This document shows, piece by piece, positions 1,495-56,974 of a stretch of DNA of 64,000 nt. A program made the translations under genes and the position numbers. The notes below the pieces were generated by a model, which worked only from the letters and a program-made list of their open reading frames with translations, ran no database searches and was not told where the DNA came from. The stretch spans positions 62,001-126,000 of the forward strand of contig JAGXRM010000008.1 in assembly GCA_018335855.1 (NCBI GenBank). Reading direction: 5' to 3'. How positions within the stretch are numbered: the first letter of the stretch is position 1; the number at the start of each line of letters is the position of its first letter. The stretch is from Clostridiales bacterium. Lineage in GTDB: Bacteria > Bacillota > Dethiobacteria > Dethiobacterales > Dethiobacteraceae.

Positions 1495-3345
1495 ATGCCA
1501 CGTCATTGTCATGATCTATCAGAAACGATTGAAATACCTGCCGGCAAACGAAGCTTAGTGCTGGTGGGCAACCCGAATGTTGGTAAGTCCGTTTTTTTCA
1601 ATGAGCTTACCGGTCGCTATGTCGATGTATCCAACTTCCCCGGAACTACGGTGGAAATTCATAAAGCTGCATATGGCGAAGATATACTGATGGATACTCC
1701 CGGCGTTTATGGTGTTTCTTCATTCAACGATGAAGAACGGGTCGCCCGGGATATTATTCTCCATGCCGATACAGTGATAAATATTGTCGATGCTCTACAT
1801 ATGGAGCGGGATTTGTTTCTTACGCAGCAGATTATCGACATGGGTATCCCCACAGTTGTGGCCCTGAATATGATGGATGAGGCCGAGGAGAGCGGGATCA
1901 CGATTGACGTGGAGAAGCTCAGCAAGTTACTTGGCGTTCCTGTTATACCCACGGTGGCTGTAACCAAAAAGGGTATTGCCGAATTAAAAGGGGCAATTAC
2001 GAAAGCTTCACTGGGTAATGCAGACCCCCGGCTTGAGGAAGAGTTGAAAAAAATCTCCATGGATGGAATTAGCCGTGCAGATGCACTGCTGGTTCTTGAG
2101 GGAGATGAAGAGGTGGCGCGCTGCCATGATTTGGTGCCGCAGCCGCTACGGGAAGAGATTTATCTGCGTCGGCGTCTCCGTGTCAACGATATTGTCGAAC
2201 AGGTGGCCACAGACGTAAACGTCAATAAGAAATGGAACAAGAAACTTGGCCAGTGGACGGTGCGCCCGCTGACTGGCATTCCGATATTATTTGCAGCACT
2301 TTATGCCATGTATTGGTTTATCGGAGTTTTTATTGCTCAAACGGTTGTTGAGATTACAGAAGAAGTTATCATGGACGGATTATATGGAGGATTTATTACT
2401 TCTTTTATCTTCCGGTTTGTTAATGAAGAAAGTTTTCTCGGGGAACTGCTGGCAGGAGAATTCGGGATGCTGACGATGGCTCCCATTTACCTGCTGGGTT
2501 TGCTTCTGCCACTGGTCATCGGTTTTTATCTGGCTCTTTCAGTCATGGAAGACTCAGGTTATCTGCCCCGTCTGGCCACACTGGTGGACAGGATGCTCAC
2601 CGGTTTAGGTTTAAACGGCCGTGCGGTCATACCGATTATTCTTGGATTTGGTTGTGTCACCATGGCAACGATTACTACCAGGCTGCTCGGCTCTAAGCGT
2701 GAGCGTTTTATCGCCACTGTACTTCTCGGAGTTACTATTCCCTGTTCAGCACAGATTGGTGTAATTGTCGGTTTGATTGCACCACTGGGATTCAAATACT
2801 TTATCATTTATTTCTTAACCATTTTTATCACGTTTGTTGCAATCGGCACTCTTTTAAACCGTGTACTGTCAGGGGAATCGACCCATCTGTTAATAGACCT
2901 GCCCCCCCTGCGTCTGCCCCGCATAAAAAATGTATTCGCTAAAACGTACACAAAGTCACTGGCGTTTATGCGTGAGGCAGCACCGCTGTTTGTCCTGGCC
3001 GCTGTAGTGATTACGTTGCTGCAGGTTTCGGGAGCTCTTTCCTGGCTGCAGGATGTCATTTCGCCTCTGACAGTTGGTTGGTTACGATTACCCCGCGAAA
3101 CGACGACTGCCTTTATAATGGGTATCATGCGGCGTGATTTTGGTGCGGCCGGAATGTATGGTATGGCGCTCACACCGGCACAAACGCTGATCGGCTTAGT
3201 AACAATTACTCTGTTTGTACCGTGTATTGCCACGATTATGATTATCGTAAAAGAACGAGGTTGGAAAGAAGGCAGCTATATTTGGGTTGGTTCAATCGTA
3301 ACTGCCTTTCTCGTCGGCGGTATTCTTGCCAGAATCATCAGTTAG
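1495..3345 (+). CDS. feoB: Ferrous iron transporter FeoB
   Basis: 616 aa membrane permease taking up Fe(II). The N-terminal G domain shows G1 GNPNVGKS (residues 25-32), G3 DTPG and G4 NMMD; a helical GDI-like region follows and then about eight membrane segments from residue 260 on. The two inverted gate repeats are visible (ALSVMEDSGYLPRLA and the second with PLFVLAAVVITLLQ). It is slightly shorter than E. coli FeoB (773 aa) and lacks a long cysteine-rich tail; the separate small cysteine protein just downstream may take that place. RBS AGGGAGGA precedes ATG 1495. Confidence 0.95.
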   Translation: MPRHCHDLSETIEIPAGKRSLVLVGNPNVGKSVFFNELTGRYVDVSNFPGTTVEIHKAAYGEDILMDTPGVYGVSSFNDEERVARDIILHADTVINIVDALHMERDLFLTQQIIDMGIPTVVALNMMDEAEESGITIDVEKLSKLLGVPVIPTVAVTKKGIAELKGAITKASLGNADPRLEEELKKISMDGISRADALLVLEGDEEVARCHDLVPQPLREEIYLRRRLRVNDIVEQVATDVNVNKKWNKKLGQWTVRPLTGIPILFAALYAMYWFIGVFIAQTVVEITEEVIMDGLYGGFITSFIFRFVNEESFLGELLAGEFGMLTMAPIYLLGLLLPLVIGFYLALSVMEDSGYLPRLATLVDRMLTGLGLNGRAVIPIILGFGCVTMATITTRLLGSKRERFIATVLLGVTIPCSAQIGVIVGLIAPLGFKYFIIYFLTIFITFVAIGTLLNRVLSGESTHLLIDLPPLRLPRIKNVFAKTYTKSLAFMREAAPLFVLAAVVITLLQVSGALSWLQDVISPLTVGWLRLPRETTTAFIMGIMRRDFGAAGMYGMALTPAQTLIGLVTITLFVPCIATIMIIVKERGWKEGSYIWVGSIVTAFLVGGILARIIS

Positions 3346-51612: not shown

Positions 51613-51638
<26 letters not shown>
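51564..51638 (+). tRNA. tRNA-Glu (TTC)
   Basis: Acceptor GGCCCCT/AGGGGTC, anticodon loop CTTTCAC (TTC at 51597-51599), T arm GGGGTTCGATTCCCC, CCA encoded. Its 3' end (from 51613) is duplicated at 56821. Confidence 0.95.
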
Positions 51639-51760
<122 letters not shown>

Positions 51761-52024: not shown

Positions 52025-52077
52025 TTGACGTAACAAATAAGAGCACGTTATAATAAGACCAGTGAGAATGATTTTCA
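52025..52077 (+). promoter_or_regulatory. Promoter and Fur box of the island's first gene
   Basis: TTGACG (52025-52030), 18-bp spacer, TATAAT (52049-52054), then TGAGAATGATTTTCA (52063-52077), a Fur box (two mismatches to the 7-1-7 consensus) covering the transcription start. Confidence 0.8.
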
Positions 52078-52106: not shown

Positions 52107-52808
52107 ATGACTAGCTTCCCCGCTACCGTTGTGAATGAAGACTTAACAGAACTGGAAAAGGAAACGATTGAGGCGTATGTTGTCCGGGAGAGTATTTATA
52201 TCTTGGAGGATGAGTTGGAATACTATTTTTCACATAAAGTAAAACTGCTGGAGATGCTTGCAGGGGGTATTAATTTTAATAAGGTCAGCCCTGCGGATCT
52301 GCAGAAAAAAATGAACCGATCACTGGTTTCTCCGCAGGACTTAGAGATTCTTCTTGCAAAGATACAAAAGAGAATCATTAGAGAATTGGCTAAAGCGAAC
52401 TGCATCTCTAACTTTTCGTTAAATTTTGACCAAATAAATCAAGGTCTACCCCAGTTTGAACTAGCTATAACAGAGCAGCTAAGAACACTTAAGCTTAGCC
52501 GCACTGTTGCTAAAGGAATTGATATGGCCTGGAAAAAAGCCAGTAAAAATATTTTACCTAAAGCTATGACAAAGGTAAGCAATAAACTGTCTGTCGGTGA
52601 TTATTTTATCTCCACTCTCGCCATCGGTCCAAAAGAACAGGAAGCAGAAATTATAACCGGCTATCTAAGAGCTGCAAGAGCCACGCTGGAACAATATCAA
52701 GTTGAACTCATGAACATTCTGGTAAAACAAATAACCAACCAACTTTTTAAAGTTCAGGACTATTGTGAATTGGTTACTGAAGATTGGGCCCTTATACGGT
52801 ATGCATAG
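52107..52808 (+). CDS. Fur-regulated helical protein of unknown function
   Basis: 233 aa, predicted mostly alpha-helical and soluble, with no signal peptide or membrane helix. Notable are the acidic start ELEKETIEAYVVRESIYILE and a basic middle (KGIDMAWKKASKNILPKAMTKVSNKL). One cysteine pair is far apart. I recognise no family. The Fur box at its promoter and the following metal-ATPase genes point to iron or metal physiology, but its own terminator (52825-52857) makes it a separate transcription unit. RBS TTGGGGGCG before ATG 52107. Confidence 0.8.
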   Translation: MTSFPATVVNEDLTELEKETIEAYVVRESIYILEDELEYYFSHKVKLLEMLAGGINFNKVSPADLQKKMNRSLVSPQDLEILLAKIQKRIIRELAKANCISNFSLNFDQINQGLPQFELAITEQLRTLKLSRTVAKGIDMAWKKASKNILPKAMTKVSNKLSVGDYFISTLAIGPKEQEAEIITGYLRAARATLEQYQVELMNILVKQITNQLFKVQDYCELVTEDWALIRYA

Positions 52809-52824
52809 ATAACAGAGAAATCTA

Positions 52825-52857
52825 AAAGATCTGCACTGGAAATGTGCAGATCTTTTA
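52825..52857 (+). terminator. Terminator of the Fur-regulated gene
   Basis: AAAAGATCTGCAC / GTGCAGATCTTTT around TGGAAAT, then ATTTT. Confidence 0.93.
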
Positions 52858-52873
52858 TTTTATGGAATTTTTC

Positions 52874-52889
52874 GCATACTAAGGTATGC
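52874..52889. promoter_or_regulatory. Possible operator of the metal-ATPase operon
   Basis: GCATAC-TAAG-GTATGC, a perfect 6-bp-arm inverted repeat 45 bases before the tandem-repeat protein gene and overlapping its promoter region. The regulator is unknown. Confidence 0.45.
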
Positions 52890-52933
52890 TAATGCAAATA
52901 ATACCAGACAGATGAAAAAGGAGGGAAAGACTG

Positions 52934-53842
52934 GTGACAGACGACAACAATACCAATGAAGCCAGAGAAGATAACGGGCATTTCGAACAGCAAGTAGCTC
53001 CTTTTAAATATGGTGCCCCCTTCCCAGGTCAAATGGGTACTCCCGGCGGTTACGGCACCCCAGGTCAAATGGGTACTCCCGGCGGTTACGGCACCCCAGG
53101 TCAAATGGGTACTCCCGGCGGTTACGGCACCCCAGGTCAAATGGGTACTCCCGGCGGTTACGGCACCCCAGGTCAAATGGGTACTCCCGGCGGTTACGGC
53201 ATCCCAGGTCAAATGGGCACCCCTGGCGGCTACGGAAATCCGGATTACAAACAGCAATACACGAATAAATCAAAACAGGAGGGTACTATGAACTACACAG
53301 GATATCAGGGAATGTATGGCGGCAATTACATGCCGAACAATCAGGCGCAAACTTATAATTATCCGCCGATGTACGCGTATAATTATCACCCCCATCATGA
53401 TCACCCGCATAACGGACATCCGTATCACTACTATCATCATGGTTACAGACCCTCCTATTATGGTGGCGGTAGTTACGGGATGAACCAATCGGGCTTTAAT
53501 TATGGCGGTGCCAACATGTATGGGGGTAGTCCCTTTGGCTTCTCCCCTATGGGTTGGCCTAACATCTTAAACCCTGGTTATTTCTCCTCCCTGCTGAACA
53601 GACCCAGGGTAAATAATTTCTTCCGTGGACTTGGCATCCTGACTGTTGGCATGCTGCTGGTACCGTCTGTTGCAAAAGCCTTTCGTCCCCTTGCTGTGTC
53701 TGCCGTAGAAGGTGCGTTAAGTATCTCGGATGAAGTAAAAAACATTTTTACAGATGCCAGAGAAGATGTTGAGGATATCTTCGCTGAGGCAAAATGGGAA
53801 GATGCAAAAGAAGAGAAAGAAAGAGACGGACGCAAGTCATAA
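52934..53842 (+). CDS. Tandem-repeat, His-rich protein with C-terminal PacL/DUF5132-like membrane segment
   Basis: 302 aa in four parts. (1) Acidic N-terminus to residue 30. (2) Six 12-residue repeats PGQMGTPGGYGT (residues 31-102). (3) An aromatic/His-rich stretch with nine His in 18 residues (about 152-169, HPHHDHPHNGHPYHYYHH) and many Gly/Tyr/Asn. (4) From residue 226 a membrane segment GLGILTVGMLLVPSVAK, then KAFRPLAVSAVEGALSI and TDAREDVEDIFAEAKW, the pattern of PacL/DUF5132 proteins that assist P-type metal ATPases. I infer a membrane-tethered metal-binding scaffold for the ATPase encoded two genes on. GTG start behind GGAGGGAAAG. The DNA repeats are near-identical, a sign of recent expansion. 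Confidence 0.75.
   Translation: MTDDNNTNEAREDNGHFEQQVAPFKYGAPFPGQMGTPGGYGTPGQMGTPGGYGTPGQMGTPGGYGTPGQMGTPGGYGTPGQMGTPGGYGIPGQMGTPGGYGNPDYKQQYTNKSKQEGTMNYTGYQGMYGGNYMPNNQAQTYNYPPMYAYNYHPHHDHPHNGHPYHYYHHGYRPSYYGGGSYGMNQSGFNYGGANMYGGSPFGFSPMGWPNILNPGYFSSLLNRPRVNNFFRGLGILTVGMLLVPSVAKAFRPLAVSAVEGALSISDEVKNIFTDAREDVEDIFAEAKWEDAKEEKERDGRKS
53024..53239 (+). repeat. Six 36-bp tandem repeats
   Basis: Units start at 53024, 53060, 53096, 53132, 53168 and 53204. Units 1-4 are identical in sequence, unit 5 differs at its end and unit 6 is most diverged. 36 is a multiple of three, so copy number can change without breaking the frame. Confidence 0.97.
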
Positions 53843-53916
53843 ATATTGGATTAATAAATAATTGCCTCCTCATACAGGGATAATAAAAACAGAAGACTGT
53901 GCGAGGAGGTAATTCT

Positions 53917-54282
53917 ATGTTGCATTTCTATAGAAGAATGTTTAATGCTTACCCTTTTAAAAAGGGATTTTGGTGGGGGATTGGTACCGCTGGGGCATTT
54001 TGGCTTTTTGGCAAGCAGTTACGTCCGCTGGCGGTAGAAGGAGCTAAAGGAATAATTAAGGTGGATCGCAGCGTTAAGGGAACGACCAGACAAACCGGCG
54101 AAAGTGTAAGCGGGATTGTGATGGAGGCCCAAACCAACAGGTTAAAGGATAAGATTAAGTCCATGAATTTAAGCGAACGCCAACGGAACCTTATTAAAAA
54201 AGATATAGGTAAATTATCCATGCAACTGGCAACGCTAAATGAAGCGGTTGACCCGCAAGCGGTAACGGAAAAGGAGCACTAG
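53917..54282 (+). CDS. Small PacL/DUF5132-like membrane protein
   Basis: 121 aa. One membrane segment (residues about 13-31, FWWGIGTAGAFWLFGKQL) leads into KQLRPLAVEGAKGIIKVD, the same K-x-[LF]-RPLAV core as in the preceding gene, and then a long helical tail ending TEKEH. PacL proteins of mycobacteria (DUF1490) have this TM-plus-Ala/Glu-helix layout and bind metals at their C-terminus; here the tail has only one terminal His. ATG 53917 with GAGGAGG; followed by the ATPase after three bases, so surely cotranscribed. Confidence 0.75.
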   Translation: MLHFYRRMFNAYPFKKGFWWGIGTAGAFWLFGKQLRPLAVEGAKGIIKVDRSVKGTTRQTGESVSGIVMEAQTNRLKDKIKSMNLSERQRNLIKKDIGKLSMQLATLNEAVDPQAVTEKEH

Positions 54283-54285
54283 AGG

Positions 54286-56535
54286 ATGAGCCTTTGCAGG
54301 ATTGAAACAGTACATTCTTTGCCCGGAAGGGTTAGGATAAGTATTTCCGGTTTAAGAGGTAATCGCCCGTTTGCCAGATCACTGGAGAAGACACTGCAAA
54401 GAAATGAGAATGTTTATCATGTTAAGGCTAACCCGCAAACGGGCAAAGCCTTAATTCTTTATAACAGAAAAAAGACTTCTCAGAAAGAAATTTTAACTGA
54501 GGTAAACAAAGATGTTTACTATATCTTGCAGAGAGTGGCTCCAATAGACGTCAGGCAAAAATGGATTCAACGAAGAACAGAGTCAAAAAGAAGGCATGAA
54601 ACCTTTGAGCCTGAAGATATCCCCGTTGAAGTCCAGGTTACCCAGGTGGTTGTTACCGGTGGCATCCTTCTTGGTTTAGTAGTAAAAAGATGTTTCTGGA
54701 AAAAATCACTGCTGGCCTTCTCCGGCAAAGTAAATCTGTTGGCCACAGTCACCACACTTGTAGCCGGTTATCCTATTATCCGCAGTGGTGTGGAAACACT
54801 CGTTACCCGTAAAAAACTCAATAACGATATGCTTATCAGTACGGCTACCGTGGTATCACTATTGTTAAAAGAAAATATTACAGGGCTTGTGGTTGTCTGG
54901 CTGGTAAACCTGAGCACCCTGTTTCAGACACTCACAATGGAAAAGTCAAGAAAGGCCATTAAAGATATGCTGCAGGGCAGGGAAGAGACAGCATGGATAG
55001 AAATTGACGGCACGGTCGTCTCAATTCCAGTTGAAAACGTTGAGGTGGGTAATACCATCCTTTGCTATATCGGGGGTCGTGTTCCGGTAGACGGTGAGAT
55101 CACTGACGGCGAGGCCGCCGTCAGTCAGGCTATTATTACCGGAGAGTCCATGCCGGTAATAAAAACGCTTGGTGATAAAATTTATGCCGGCTCCATAGTA
55201 GAGCAGGGTAGCATCAAAATCCGTGTTGAAAAAGCGGGGCAGGATACATCCATAGCCAAAATTGTTGCTATGGTGGAAGAAGCATCCCGGGACAGGGCAC
55301 CGGTTGAAAACATGGCTGATCGTTATGCTGACAGAATTGTTCCTTACTCATTCGGTCTGGCGGCTCTGGTATACGTATTAACCAGAGATTTTAAGCGCAG
55401 CATGACGATGCTGGTCGTTGCTTGTCCATGTGCTGCAGGCCTGGCCACCCCTACCGCTATCAGTGCATCAATGGGGAATGCGGCAAGGAAAGGTATTTTG
55501 GTTAAAGGCGGCAGTTATCTGGAAAAGGTAGGCAAGACGAATGTTGTCTTGTTCGATAAGACCGGCACATTAACCGAAGGTAAGCCCAGTGTCCGGGAAG
55601 TCTTGCCGATGATTAAGACGGTTCCCTTTGAGCAAATCATTCAGCTGGCTTCATCGGTAGAGTATCAGACAAACCATCCTTTAGCTAATGCAGTTGTTAT
55701 GCGGGCTGAGGAAATGAAGCTGGGATTGCTTACAGTAGAACACAAGGAAATTATTATAGGCAAGGGTGTCAGTGGCAGCATTGAAAATGTACTGGTGGCC
55801 GTAGGCAATGAAGCTCTGATGAAAGAAATAGGTGTCAACCTTATGCGGGCAAAGGCAAAAGCATACAGATTATATATGCTCGGACAGACAGTCCTTTACG
55901 TGGCAAGAGATAATAGGCTGATCGGACTGATTGGCGTAGCTGATAATATTCGCCCCGACAGCAAAATGGCGATTCGCAAATTGCGGCAAGCTGGCATCAA
56001 AACCATCGGCCTTGTCTCAGGGGATTGCAATGAAACCGCAGAGCTGGTGGCGCGTGAATTAGGGCTAAACGAGTTTTGGGCAGAAACAATGCCTGCTGAA
56101 AAAGTACGTATTGTAAAAGATTTTCAGCAAGCAGGCTATACCGTGACCATGGTAGGTGACGGAATCAATGATTCCCCGGCACTGGCAACAGCCGATATCG
56201 GTATTGCCATGGGTACAGGAGGAACAGATGTGGCCATTGAATCAGCCGACATTGTGCTAGCTGCCGATGATCCACTTAAAATCGCATCTGTCATCAGGTT
56301 AAGTAACCATACAATGGAAATTGTTAAACAGAATTTCCTCTTTGCCGTCGGGATCAATGTCAGCGGATTGCTTCTGGGAGCGGGTAAACTGATTACACCG
56401 CTTACAGCAGCAATTTTACACAATCTCAGTACATTCGGCGTTGTGGTAAACTCTTCACGATTGTTTAACTATAACCCCGATTCCGGGAAAGGAAGGCGGC
56501 GCCAAAATGCCAGACATAAACGAACTCGAAGATAA
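54286..56535 (+). CDS. P1B-type heavy-metal translocating ATPase, CtpC-like
   Basis: 749 aa. N-terminal HMA_2-type domain without a CxxC metal site (SLPGRVRISISGL, residues 1-80), membrane helices, actuator ITGESMPV, CPC motif in helix 6 (C380-P-C382), phosphorylation site DKTGT (D424), NHPLANAVV (HP motif) and GDGINDSPALATAD. The last helix carries HNLSTFGVVVNSSRLFNY, typical of the CtpC/CtpV group. CtpC of Mycobacterium exports Zn or Mn together with PacL proteins. The C-terminal tail is very basic (KGRRRQNARHKRTRR). Ion specificity cannot be read here. Confidence 0.92.
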   Translation: MSLCRIETVHSLPGRVRISISGLRGNRPFARSLEKTLQRNENVYHVKANPQTGKALILYNRKKTSQKEILTEVNKDVYYILQRVAPIDVRQKWIQRRTESKRRHETFEPEDIPVEVQVTQVVVTGGILLGLVVKRCFWKKSLLAFSGKVNLLATVTTLVAGYPIIRSGVETLVTRKKLNNDMLISTATVVSLLLKENITGLVVVWLVNLSTLFQTLTMEKSRKAIKDMLQGREETAWIEIDGTVVSIPVENVEVGNTILCYIGGRVPVDGEITDGEAAVSQAIITGESMPVIKTLGDKIYAGSIVEQGSIKIRVEKAGQDTSIAKIVAMVEEASRDRAPVENMADRYADRIVPYSFGLAALVYVLTRDFKRSMTMLVVACPCAAGLATPTAISASMGNAARKGILVKGGSYLEKVGKTNVVLFDKTGTLTEGKPSVREVLPMIKTVPFEQIIQLASSVEYQTNHPLANAVVMRAEEMKLGLLTVEHKEIIIGKGVSGSIENVLVAVGNEALMKEIGVNLMRAKAKAYRLYMLGQTVLYVARDNRLIGLIGVADNIRPDSKMAIRKLRQAGIKTIGLVSGDCNETAELVARELGLNEFWAETMPAEKVRIVKDFQQAGYTVTMVGDGINDSPALATADIGIAMGTGGTDVAIESADIVLAADDPLKIASVIRLSNHTMEIVKQNFLFAVGINVSGLLLGAGKLITPLTAAILHNLSTFGVVVNSSRLFNYNPDSGKGRRRQNARHKRTRR

Positions 56536-56743
56536 GATGAAAGTTGTGATGAAAGACCTGAAAGCATGCGTGGAGATGAGTATACAAATCAGAAAAGAGA
56601 ATCCGGAGGCAAAGAAGCGGATTGATAAGTACTGGGAAGCGTTTCTTAGTCACTTCCTGGACTATGTTAAACGGCGGGAAAAAGAGAGCGGAGAAGCGCT
56701 TTTAAAAGGCATTTCTCCGACTAAGTTGTTAAAATTTTGGTAA
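56507..56743 (+). CDS. Small helical protein following the metal ATPase
   Basis: 78 aa, entirely helical by appearance with heptad-like charge pattern (MPDINELEDKMKVVMKDLKACVEMSI...) and one Cys. Starts 29 bases inside the ATPase 3' end, so it is translationally coupled. No family recognised. Start ATG 56507 behind GGAAAGGAAGG. It may be another accessory of the ATPase (inference). A terminator-like hairpin follows only at 56927. Confidence 0.6.
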   Translation: MPDINELEDKMKVVMKDLKACVEMSIQIRKENPEAKKRIDKYWEAFLSHFLDYVKRREKESGEALLKGISPTKLLKFW

Positions 56744-56820: not shown

Positions 56821-56846
56821 GGGTTCGATTCCCCCAGGGGTCACCA
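56821..56846 (+). tRNA. tRNA-Glu 3'-end fragment (not functional)
   Basis: GGGTTCGATTCCCCC and AGGGGTCACCA, identical to the 3' part of the tRNA-Glu at 51564-51638. The upstream sequence (56744-56820) has no tRNA 5' half; it contains only CGTTGCGGCAAGGACAAGG-type sequence with no gene. Confidence 0.9.
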
Positions 56847-56850
56847 TTTA

Positions 56851-56925
56851 GGGCGATTAGCTCAGCTGGGAGAGCGCCTGCCTTACAAGCAGGATGTTGG
56901 CGGTCCGATTAGTCATCGCCCACCA
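56851..56925 (+). pseudogene. tRNA-Val (TAC) pseudogene
   Basis: Identical to tRNA-Val 51643-51718 up to the variable region. It then has GGTCCGATTAG in place of GGTTCGATCCCG in the T arm: one base lost and the T stem pairing broken. Acceptor and CCA remain. Probably not functional. Confidence 0.85.
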
Positions 56926-56926
56926 T

Positions 56927-56974
56927 ATAAACACAGTAGCTGTGAGGCTTTTGCCTTACAGCTACTGTGTTTAT
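56927..56974 (+). terminator. Terminator-like hairpin after the tRNA pseudogene
   Basis: 22-bp stem (arms ATAAACACAGTAGCTGT-GAGGC and its near-perfect complement) with TTTT loop. It is longer than the homologous hairpin at 51728 and ends in TTTAT. The interval to 57103 holds nothing else except a short GGCTTACGCC-type inverted repeat near 57000. Confidence 0.7.

Follow-up and report, generated by a model that had tools for sequence, protein, structure and literature searches.

A five-gene cassette encoding a P-type ATPase and two PacL-like proteins

The 64-kb stretch of a Clostridiales bacterium contig (JAGXRM010000008.1) analysed here, called the window and used for all position numbers, carries on its forward strand a five-gene cassette (U, P1, P2, a P-type ATPase gene and G4; 52107-56743), for which we propose a role in iron handling under the control of Fur. 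A sequence-only reading of the window had recognised a four-gene metal-efflux operon here. Its four open reading frames (ORFs) were verified at the coordinates given earlier, together with the array of six GQMGTPGGYGTP repeats, the cluster of nine His and both segments of the K-x-[LF]-RPLAV type (KAFRPLAV in P1 and KQLRPLAV in P2). However, the operon begins at 52107 with a fifth gene, U, and the promoter and operator lie ahead of this gene. The genes are as follows (aa, amino acids; TM, transmembrane segment).

52107..52808, + strand: U, 233 aa, first gene of the operon, family unknown, predicted helical
52934..53842, + strand: P1, 302 aa, GTG start behind AAGGAGGG, N-terminally extended PacL-like protein
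53917..54282, + strand: P2, 121 aa, short PacL-like protein, TM followed by KQLRPLAV, preferred start ATG 53917
54286..56535, + strand: P1B6-like (CtpC-type) P-type ATPase, 749 aa, N-terminal HMA_2 domain, CPC in TM4, HN in TM6
56507..56743, + strand: G4, 78 aa, predicted helical hairpin of an undescribed family

Orthologues of all five proteins were found in two genomes of another family (loci L058 and L059), where the complete order is U, extended PacL-like, short PacL-like, CPC ATPase and G4, followed by an ATPase without CPC. Because these orthologues keep the order, the coding of all five genes is genuine, and a chance arrangement or ORF artefact was ruled out. U is 33-34% identical to the first genes of the orthologous operons, the C-terminal part of P1 is 47-48% identical to the same gene there, and the window ATPase shares 62% identity with the CPC ATPase of L059. 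The start of G4 overlaps the end of the ATPase gene by 29 nucleotides (nt), and this overlap is found again in L059.

The ATPase belongs to a CtpC/P1B6 clade

The HMA_2 domain of the ATPase scored above the Pfam cut-off, and its motifs are VVACPCAAGL (CPC) in TM4 and AILHNLSTFGVVVNS (HN) in TM6. Boudehen et al. named CtpC 'P1B6-like' for having HN in TM6 together with CPC in TM4 (PMC9374683). In a tree of 29 ATPases, the window ATPase was placed with a support of 100/99 inside a 20-row CtpC/P1B6 clade, a placement to be read with the long branches of the P1B6 rows in mind. This clade also takes in the DUF1490-linked ATPases with CPC and HN (CtpC type) and the P1B6-type ATPases of L010-L012. 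By contrast, the DUF1490-linked ATPases without HN, which we read as CtpV/CtpG type, and the paralogues from the same genome (CopA/CadA-like) fell outside it. Of the kinship with CtpC, CtpV and CtpG suggested by the sequence-only reading, the CtpC part was thus borne out by phylogeny, while a CtpV/CtpG-type kinship was ruled out by the tree.

A second HMA_2 ATPase without CPC (TM4 LCPMG or LTPSA) was seen at L058 (1258-3420), L059 (4594-6753) and L057 (7040-9181), and is possibly a regulatory or degenerate partner.

P1 and P2 are related to PacL proteins at the level of profiles

P1 and P2 share with PacL proteins a single TM followed by an acidic Ala/Glu helix, and both are encoded together with a P1B ATPase. 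Profile comparison with hhalign joined the P1 core family to the P2 family (98.6%, E 1.2e-15) and, weakly, the P1 family to DUF1490, represented by 12 actinobacterial proteins gathered in the analysis (52%, E 1.5e-4). The latter alignment runs along an AV...EDIVAEA stretch, which reads AV...EDIFAEAK in P1 and AV...DVVAEAR in DUF1490. The P2 family gave no direct signal against DUF1490 (hhalign E 0.29) and is therefore tied to it solely via the P1 family. In Peptostreptococcus and a Desulfobacterales bacterium, small proteins encoded next to ATPases of P1B6 type also fell into the P1 superfamily (hhalign 91.5%, E 8.6e-7). At the P1B6-type loci L010 (9101-9388) and L012 (8997-9263), the small TM protein carries an ED[IL]IAEK motif and matches no Pfam family above cut-off, but it too is a member of the P1 superfamily.

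Pfam searches gave similarity of the same kind at lower scores. Among 17 members of the P1 family, DUF5132 was matched by 9, DUF6110 by 2 and DUF1490 by 1 (E 0.0015), all below the cut-offs, and the window proteins themselves scored 16.9 bits for DUF5132 (cut-off 25 bits) and 15 bits for DUF6110 (cut-off 26 bits). No Pfam match to DUF1490 was obtained for P1 or P2 or anywhere in the genome, and direct searches of the same genome or its class with PF17195, PF19605 and PF07371 returned nothing. The GXXG motif of the PacL TM is absent from the P1 and P2 families, which conserve GXG instead, and no PacL-style C-terminal His/Asp metal-binding motif is present, P1 ending in ERDGRKS and P2 in VTEKEH. 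As judged from profile similarity, P1 and P2 belong to a PacL-like superfamily and are not DUF1490 PacL proteins. The membrane segment and Ala/Glu helix described as PacL-like in the sequence-only reading therefore stand as homology detected by hhalign, but the similarity to DUF5132, DUF6110 and DUF1490, although real, stays under every curated cut-off.

The N-terminal extension of P1 is collagen-like and His-rich

The sole tandem array in the window detected by Tandem Repeats Finder (TRF) is a 36-bp unit present in 5.9 copies with 97% matches (53023-53235). It encodes the six 12-aa repeats of P1, in which 24 uninterrupted Gly-X-Y triplets occupy residues 32-103. Since Gly occurs at every third position, the repeat is collagen-like, beyond the mere low complexity first ascribed to it. 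We estimated the chance of such a periodicity in a 12-residue unit with five Gly at ~3% by our own arithmetic, and the Pfam Collagen profile scored P1 at 24.7 bits against the 27.2 bits needed (E 2e-5). A triple helix is possible on the basis of this pattern. Further on, a His/Tyr patch at about residues 149-169, N-terminal to the TM, holds the nine-His cluster YHPHHDHPHNGHPYHYYHH, with ten His in full-length P1. The TM follows at about residues 230-248, and then come KAFRPLAV and the acidic Ala/Glu helix EDVEDIFAEAK.

The collagen-like array raises the possibility that P1 is a surface or adhesin-like collagen protein that neighbours the pump platform by chance. However, P1 has no N-terminal hydrophobic signal segment, its C-terminal part is of PacL type and conserved in the orthologous operons, the gene order is kept, and the P1 orthologues in L058 and L059 lack the array altogether. 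An adhesin identity was ruled out by the missing signal segment and the PacL-type C-terminal part, and we regard a chance neighbour of this kind as highly improbable.

In these orthologues the His/Tyr patch is reduced (YHPRGYYYHRFY), and the whole extension contains only 2-3 His. N-terminally extended PacL-like proteins, 159-364 aa long, were found at L057-L061, L063, L064, L066, L068, L071 and L077, and their extensions are compositionally biased, being rich in Tyr/Gly/Asn in L058-L059 and in Arg/Gly/Tyr or Gln in the others. N-terminal extension of PacL-like proteins is a general, recurrent design in the phylum, and the fusion itself is not unique. By contrast, within the genomes sampled only the window has the Gly-X-Y array and the expansion to nine His.

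The topology of P1 is the key question for the mechanism. With the acidic helix in the cytoplasm, where PacL1 has it, the 230 residues ahead of the TM, and with them the His patch, must be outside; in the opposite orientation the helix could not reach the cytoplasmic domain of the ATPase.

The operon shares a Fur box with iron-uptake operons

The following elements were located ahead of U and between U and P1.

52025..52054, + strand: promoter TTGACG-18-TATAAT, 11/12 in a consensus scan
52063..52077, + strand: Fur box TGAGAATGATTTTCA, 8 nt past the -10 hexamer and 29 nt ahead of ATG 52107
52823..52857, + strand: intrinsic-terminator-like hairpin of 14 pairs in the U/P1 intergenic region

The TGAGAATGATTTTCA site has two mismatches to the 7-1-7 Fur box, and when the 200-nt region was resampled 20,000 times under a first-order Markov model, an equally good match appeared in 0.35% of the cases. 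The orthologous operons have TTGTTT-18-TATAAA at the equivalent position and, in both L058 and L059, a TGAGAA-type site at the same distance after the -10 hexamer as in the window, together with a perfect Fur box, TGATAATnATTATCA, just ahead of, or at, the start of U. Across the 2.96-Mb genome the exact motif TGADAATNATTNTCA was found four times, namely ahead of feoA/feoB, ahead of an FhuB/FecD-like siderophore permease, ahead of this operon and once within an ORF; FeoB scored above the TIGR00437 cut-off and the siderophore permease below the equivalog cut-offs. This is strong sequence evidence that the operon would be controlled by Fur and hence have a role in iron. Because the box is common to the operon and to iron-uptake operons, an iron context is likelier than Zn/Mn efflux, and the Zn/Mn/Cd efflux role given to the operon by the sequence-only reading is disfavoured.

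A plain Zn/Mn/Cd efflux operon with an incidental Fur-like box would agree with the ATPase clade and the PacL-like partners. However, the box is footprinted at one promoter position in three genomes, with perfect copies in two of them, and this explanation appears improbable to us. Fur control alone does not define the substrate, and a Fur-controlled PacL/CtpC-type effluxosome could instead serve detoxification in iron starvation by expelling Zn, Mn, Co or Cd that leaks through derepressed iron importers. CtpC, the nearest characterised ATPase, exports Zn and also combines CPC with HN (PMC9374683), and the His-rich patch of P1 suits Zn, Ni or Co. By contrast, the cassette showed no recognisable gene for a Zn- or Cd-type regulator, the orthologue extensions are poor in His, and the operator is the one common to feoAB and the siderophore permease. 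We consider detoxification possible but rather doubtful.

The feoAB operon of this genome also lies in the window, where a Fur-box-like TGAGAATAATTATCA (1222-1236) stands immediately upstream of feoA and is followed by feoB (1495-3345).

U and G4 accompany related pumps across the phylum

A profile built from three G4 proteins matched 26 of 398 same-phylum genomes, one match (L080) being partial and probably spurious. Among the 25 credible members, which include the window, a PacL-like gene was present near G4 in 21 and an HMA_2-type P-type ATPase in 16 within the fetched neighbourhoods of 8-14 kb; these counts are descriptive, several members being congeners and some PacL rows having sat in the training set. 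G4 is predicted to form a two-helix hairpin (pLDDT 83). The single-sequence fold of U was helical only and, at a pLDDT of 44, unusable. Distant homologues of U in other clusters emerged from profile comparison (hhalign 94%, E 1.3e-7), whereas BLAST between U and its distant homologue reached only E 0.55. No described family was matched above cut-off by U or G4, and U had no Pfam or NCBIfam match at all. Across the phylum, U and G4 represent two small protein families associated with such pumps.

At L062, L067 and L069, G4-family genes stand right after rpoD, as the window cassette does, with no HMA_2 P-type ATPase nearby. This placement suggests that G4 also acts outside pump clusters or that these loci have a history in common. 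Giant ATPases of 1.5-1.7 thousand aa were observed at L017 (3292-8169), L018 (1862-6847), L057, L060, L061 and L070, and the one that was scanned, in L017, is a fusion of HMA_2, P1B-type and P2A-type ATPase. G4 proteins and two or three PacL-like proteins are encoded with them, and some of the latter have a Gly-zipper-like tail. We take these giant fused ATPases to be CtpH/CtpI-like.

A model for the cassette in iron handling

The gene content and its conservation, the clade and motifs of the ATPase, the Fur-box footprint and the PacL-type homology are most coherently read as a Fur-repressed, PacL-scaffolded, five-gene P1B6-like membrane platform for iron handling with a possibly ferrosome-like role, a reading that we judge to have about an even chance of being correct. 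At low iron, Fur would leave the operator and the cassette would be made alongside the iron importers. The P1B6-like ATPase would take metal, most likely Fe2+, from the cytosol outward. The two PacL-type proteins may stabilise and cluster it, with their single membrane segment oligomerising and their acidic Ala/Glu helix touching the HMA_2 domain. In the larger of the two, the N-terminal extension would add multivalency (collagen-like or Tyr/Gly-rich) and a metal-binding His/Tyr patch. On the return of iron, a membrane-bounded or membrane-clustered iron store would be filled. Ferrosome-like storage is favoured because simple iron export would defeat its own purpose in a pump produced during iron starvation; a pump made while iron is scarce fits storage, or the handling of other metals that enter via the iron importers. 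More tentatively, the cassette may constitute an undescribed Fur-controlled iron store made of a P1B6-like ATPase, two PacL-type scaffolds (one of them collagen-like and His-rich) and the U and G4 families.

Several points weigh against the iron-handling platform. What U and G4 do, which metal is moved in which direction, and the clustering and storage are all inferences on our part. TM4 of the ATPase has CPC as in the Zn-exporting CtpC, while the P1B6-type ATPases of L010-L012 have SCG. No good Fur box was found in the clusters with giant HMA_2 ATPases, and iron control may therefore be particular to this branch. In the window operon, the terminator-like hairpin separates U from P1. Positive charges flank the TM of P1 on both sides and favour neither orientation, and an inward Ala/Glu helix would demand export of the 230-residue tail by a protein in which no second hydrophobic segment was seen. 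Finally, the P1 core, P2 and G4 all score under the curated family cut-offs.

The cassette lies between tRNA-derived direct repeats

Downstream of rpoD, the cassette is bordered by ~129-nt direct repeats of tRNA-Glu/tRNA-Val origin.

51613..51741, + strand: left copy, ~129 nt, tRNA-Glu 3' end, tRNA-Val and terminator start
56821..56948, + strand: right copy, tRNA-Glu 3' end and decayed tRNA-Val

On the left side, tRNA-Glu and tRNA-Val are intact according to ARAGORN, which did not call the right tRNA-Val. Among 98 genomes of the class, none besides this one gave a match to the short PacL-like gene at E 0.001. A same-genus genome keeps rpoD and the tRNA cluster but has different genes downstream, with no clean empty site found there; no integrase was seen. 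The repeats, the restricted occurrence of the short PacL-like gene and the different neighbours in the same genus suggest that the cassette was acquired or that the locus is variable.

Comparison with known pump-scaffold systems

In mycobacteria, PacL1 acts as a scaffold of CtpC (PMC9374683). The cassette shares with this effluxosome a gene for a PacL-type TM and acidic Ala/Glu helix next to a CtpC-clade CPC/HN ATPase, and a proposed scaffold for pump clusters (PMC9374683, PMC13043812). By contrast, the window operon has a Fur box in its promoter, two PacL-like proteins, none with a DUF1490 match above cut-off, and the additional U and G4, and its metal-binding residues lie in an N-terminal repetitive extension instead of a C-terminal DLHDHDH motif. 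A Firmicutes version of the PacL platform, as envisaged in the sequence-only reading, does exist but is already on record, since DUF6110 PacL-like proteins with P1B6 ATPases have been noted mainly in Firmicutes (PMC9374683, PMC13043812). There, too, a small TM protein stands beside a P1B6-type ATPase; however, the window proteins score under the DUF6110 cut-off, and the DUF6110 forms, as described in the available text, have neither predicted metal-binding motifs nor an N-terminal extension. In the literature found, PacL scaffolding has been worked out in mycobacteria alone (Zn, Cd), with no tests of the PacL-like proteins of Firmicutes.

The clusters with fused HMA_2, P1B and P2A ATPases (L017, L018, L057, L060, L061 and L070) have PacL-like and G4 companions in common with the window. 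They differ in their double ATPases of 1.5-1.7 thousand residues and in having no good Fur box.

The metal transporter of the ferrosome is of P1B6 type. Ferrosomes of C. difficile need FezA and FezB, both repressed by Fur (PMC12574912), and FezB is a putative ferrous iron transporter (PMC11334425). The fez system resembles the cassette in Fur control, which is predicted for the cassette, in the combination of a membrane protein and a metal transporter, and in the probable link to iron. By contrast, the window ATPase has CPC in TM4, against SCG in the P1B6-type ATPases of L010-L012, the PacL-like protein is extended, and no gene for a FezC cytochrome was recognised in the cassette. If the cassette does constitute an undescribed Fur-controlled iron store, mycobacterial effluxosomes and ferrosomes would be joined in one superfamily of pump-scaffold systems. 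The predicted Fur operator conserved in three genomes links a PacL-like/P1B6-like cassette to iron and thereby offers a testable bridge between the two.

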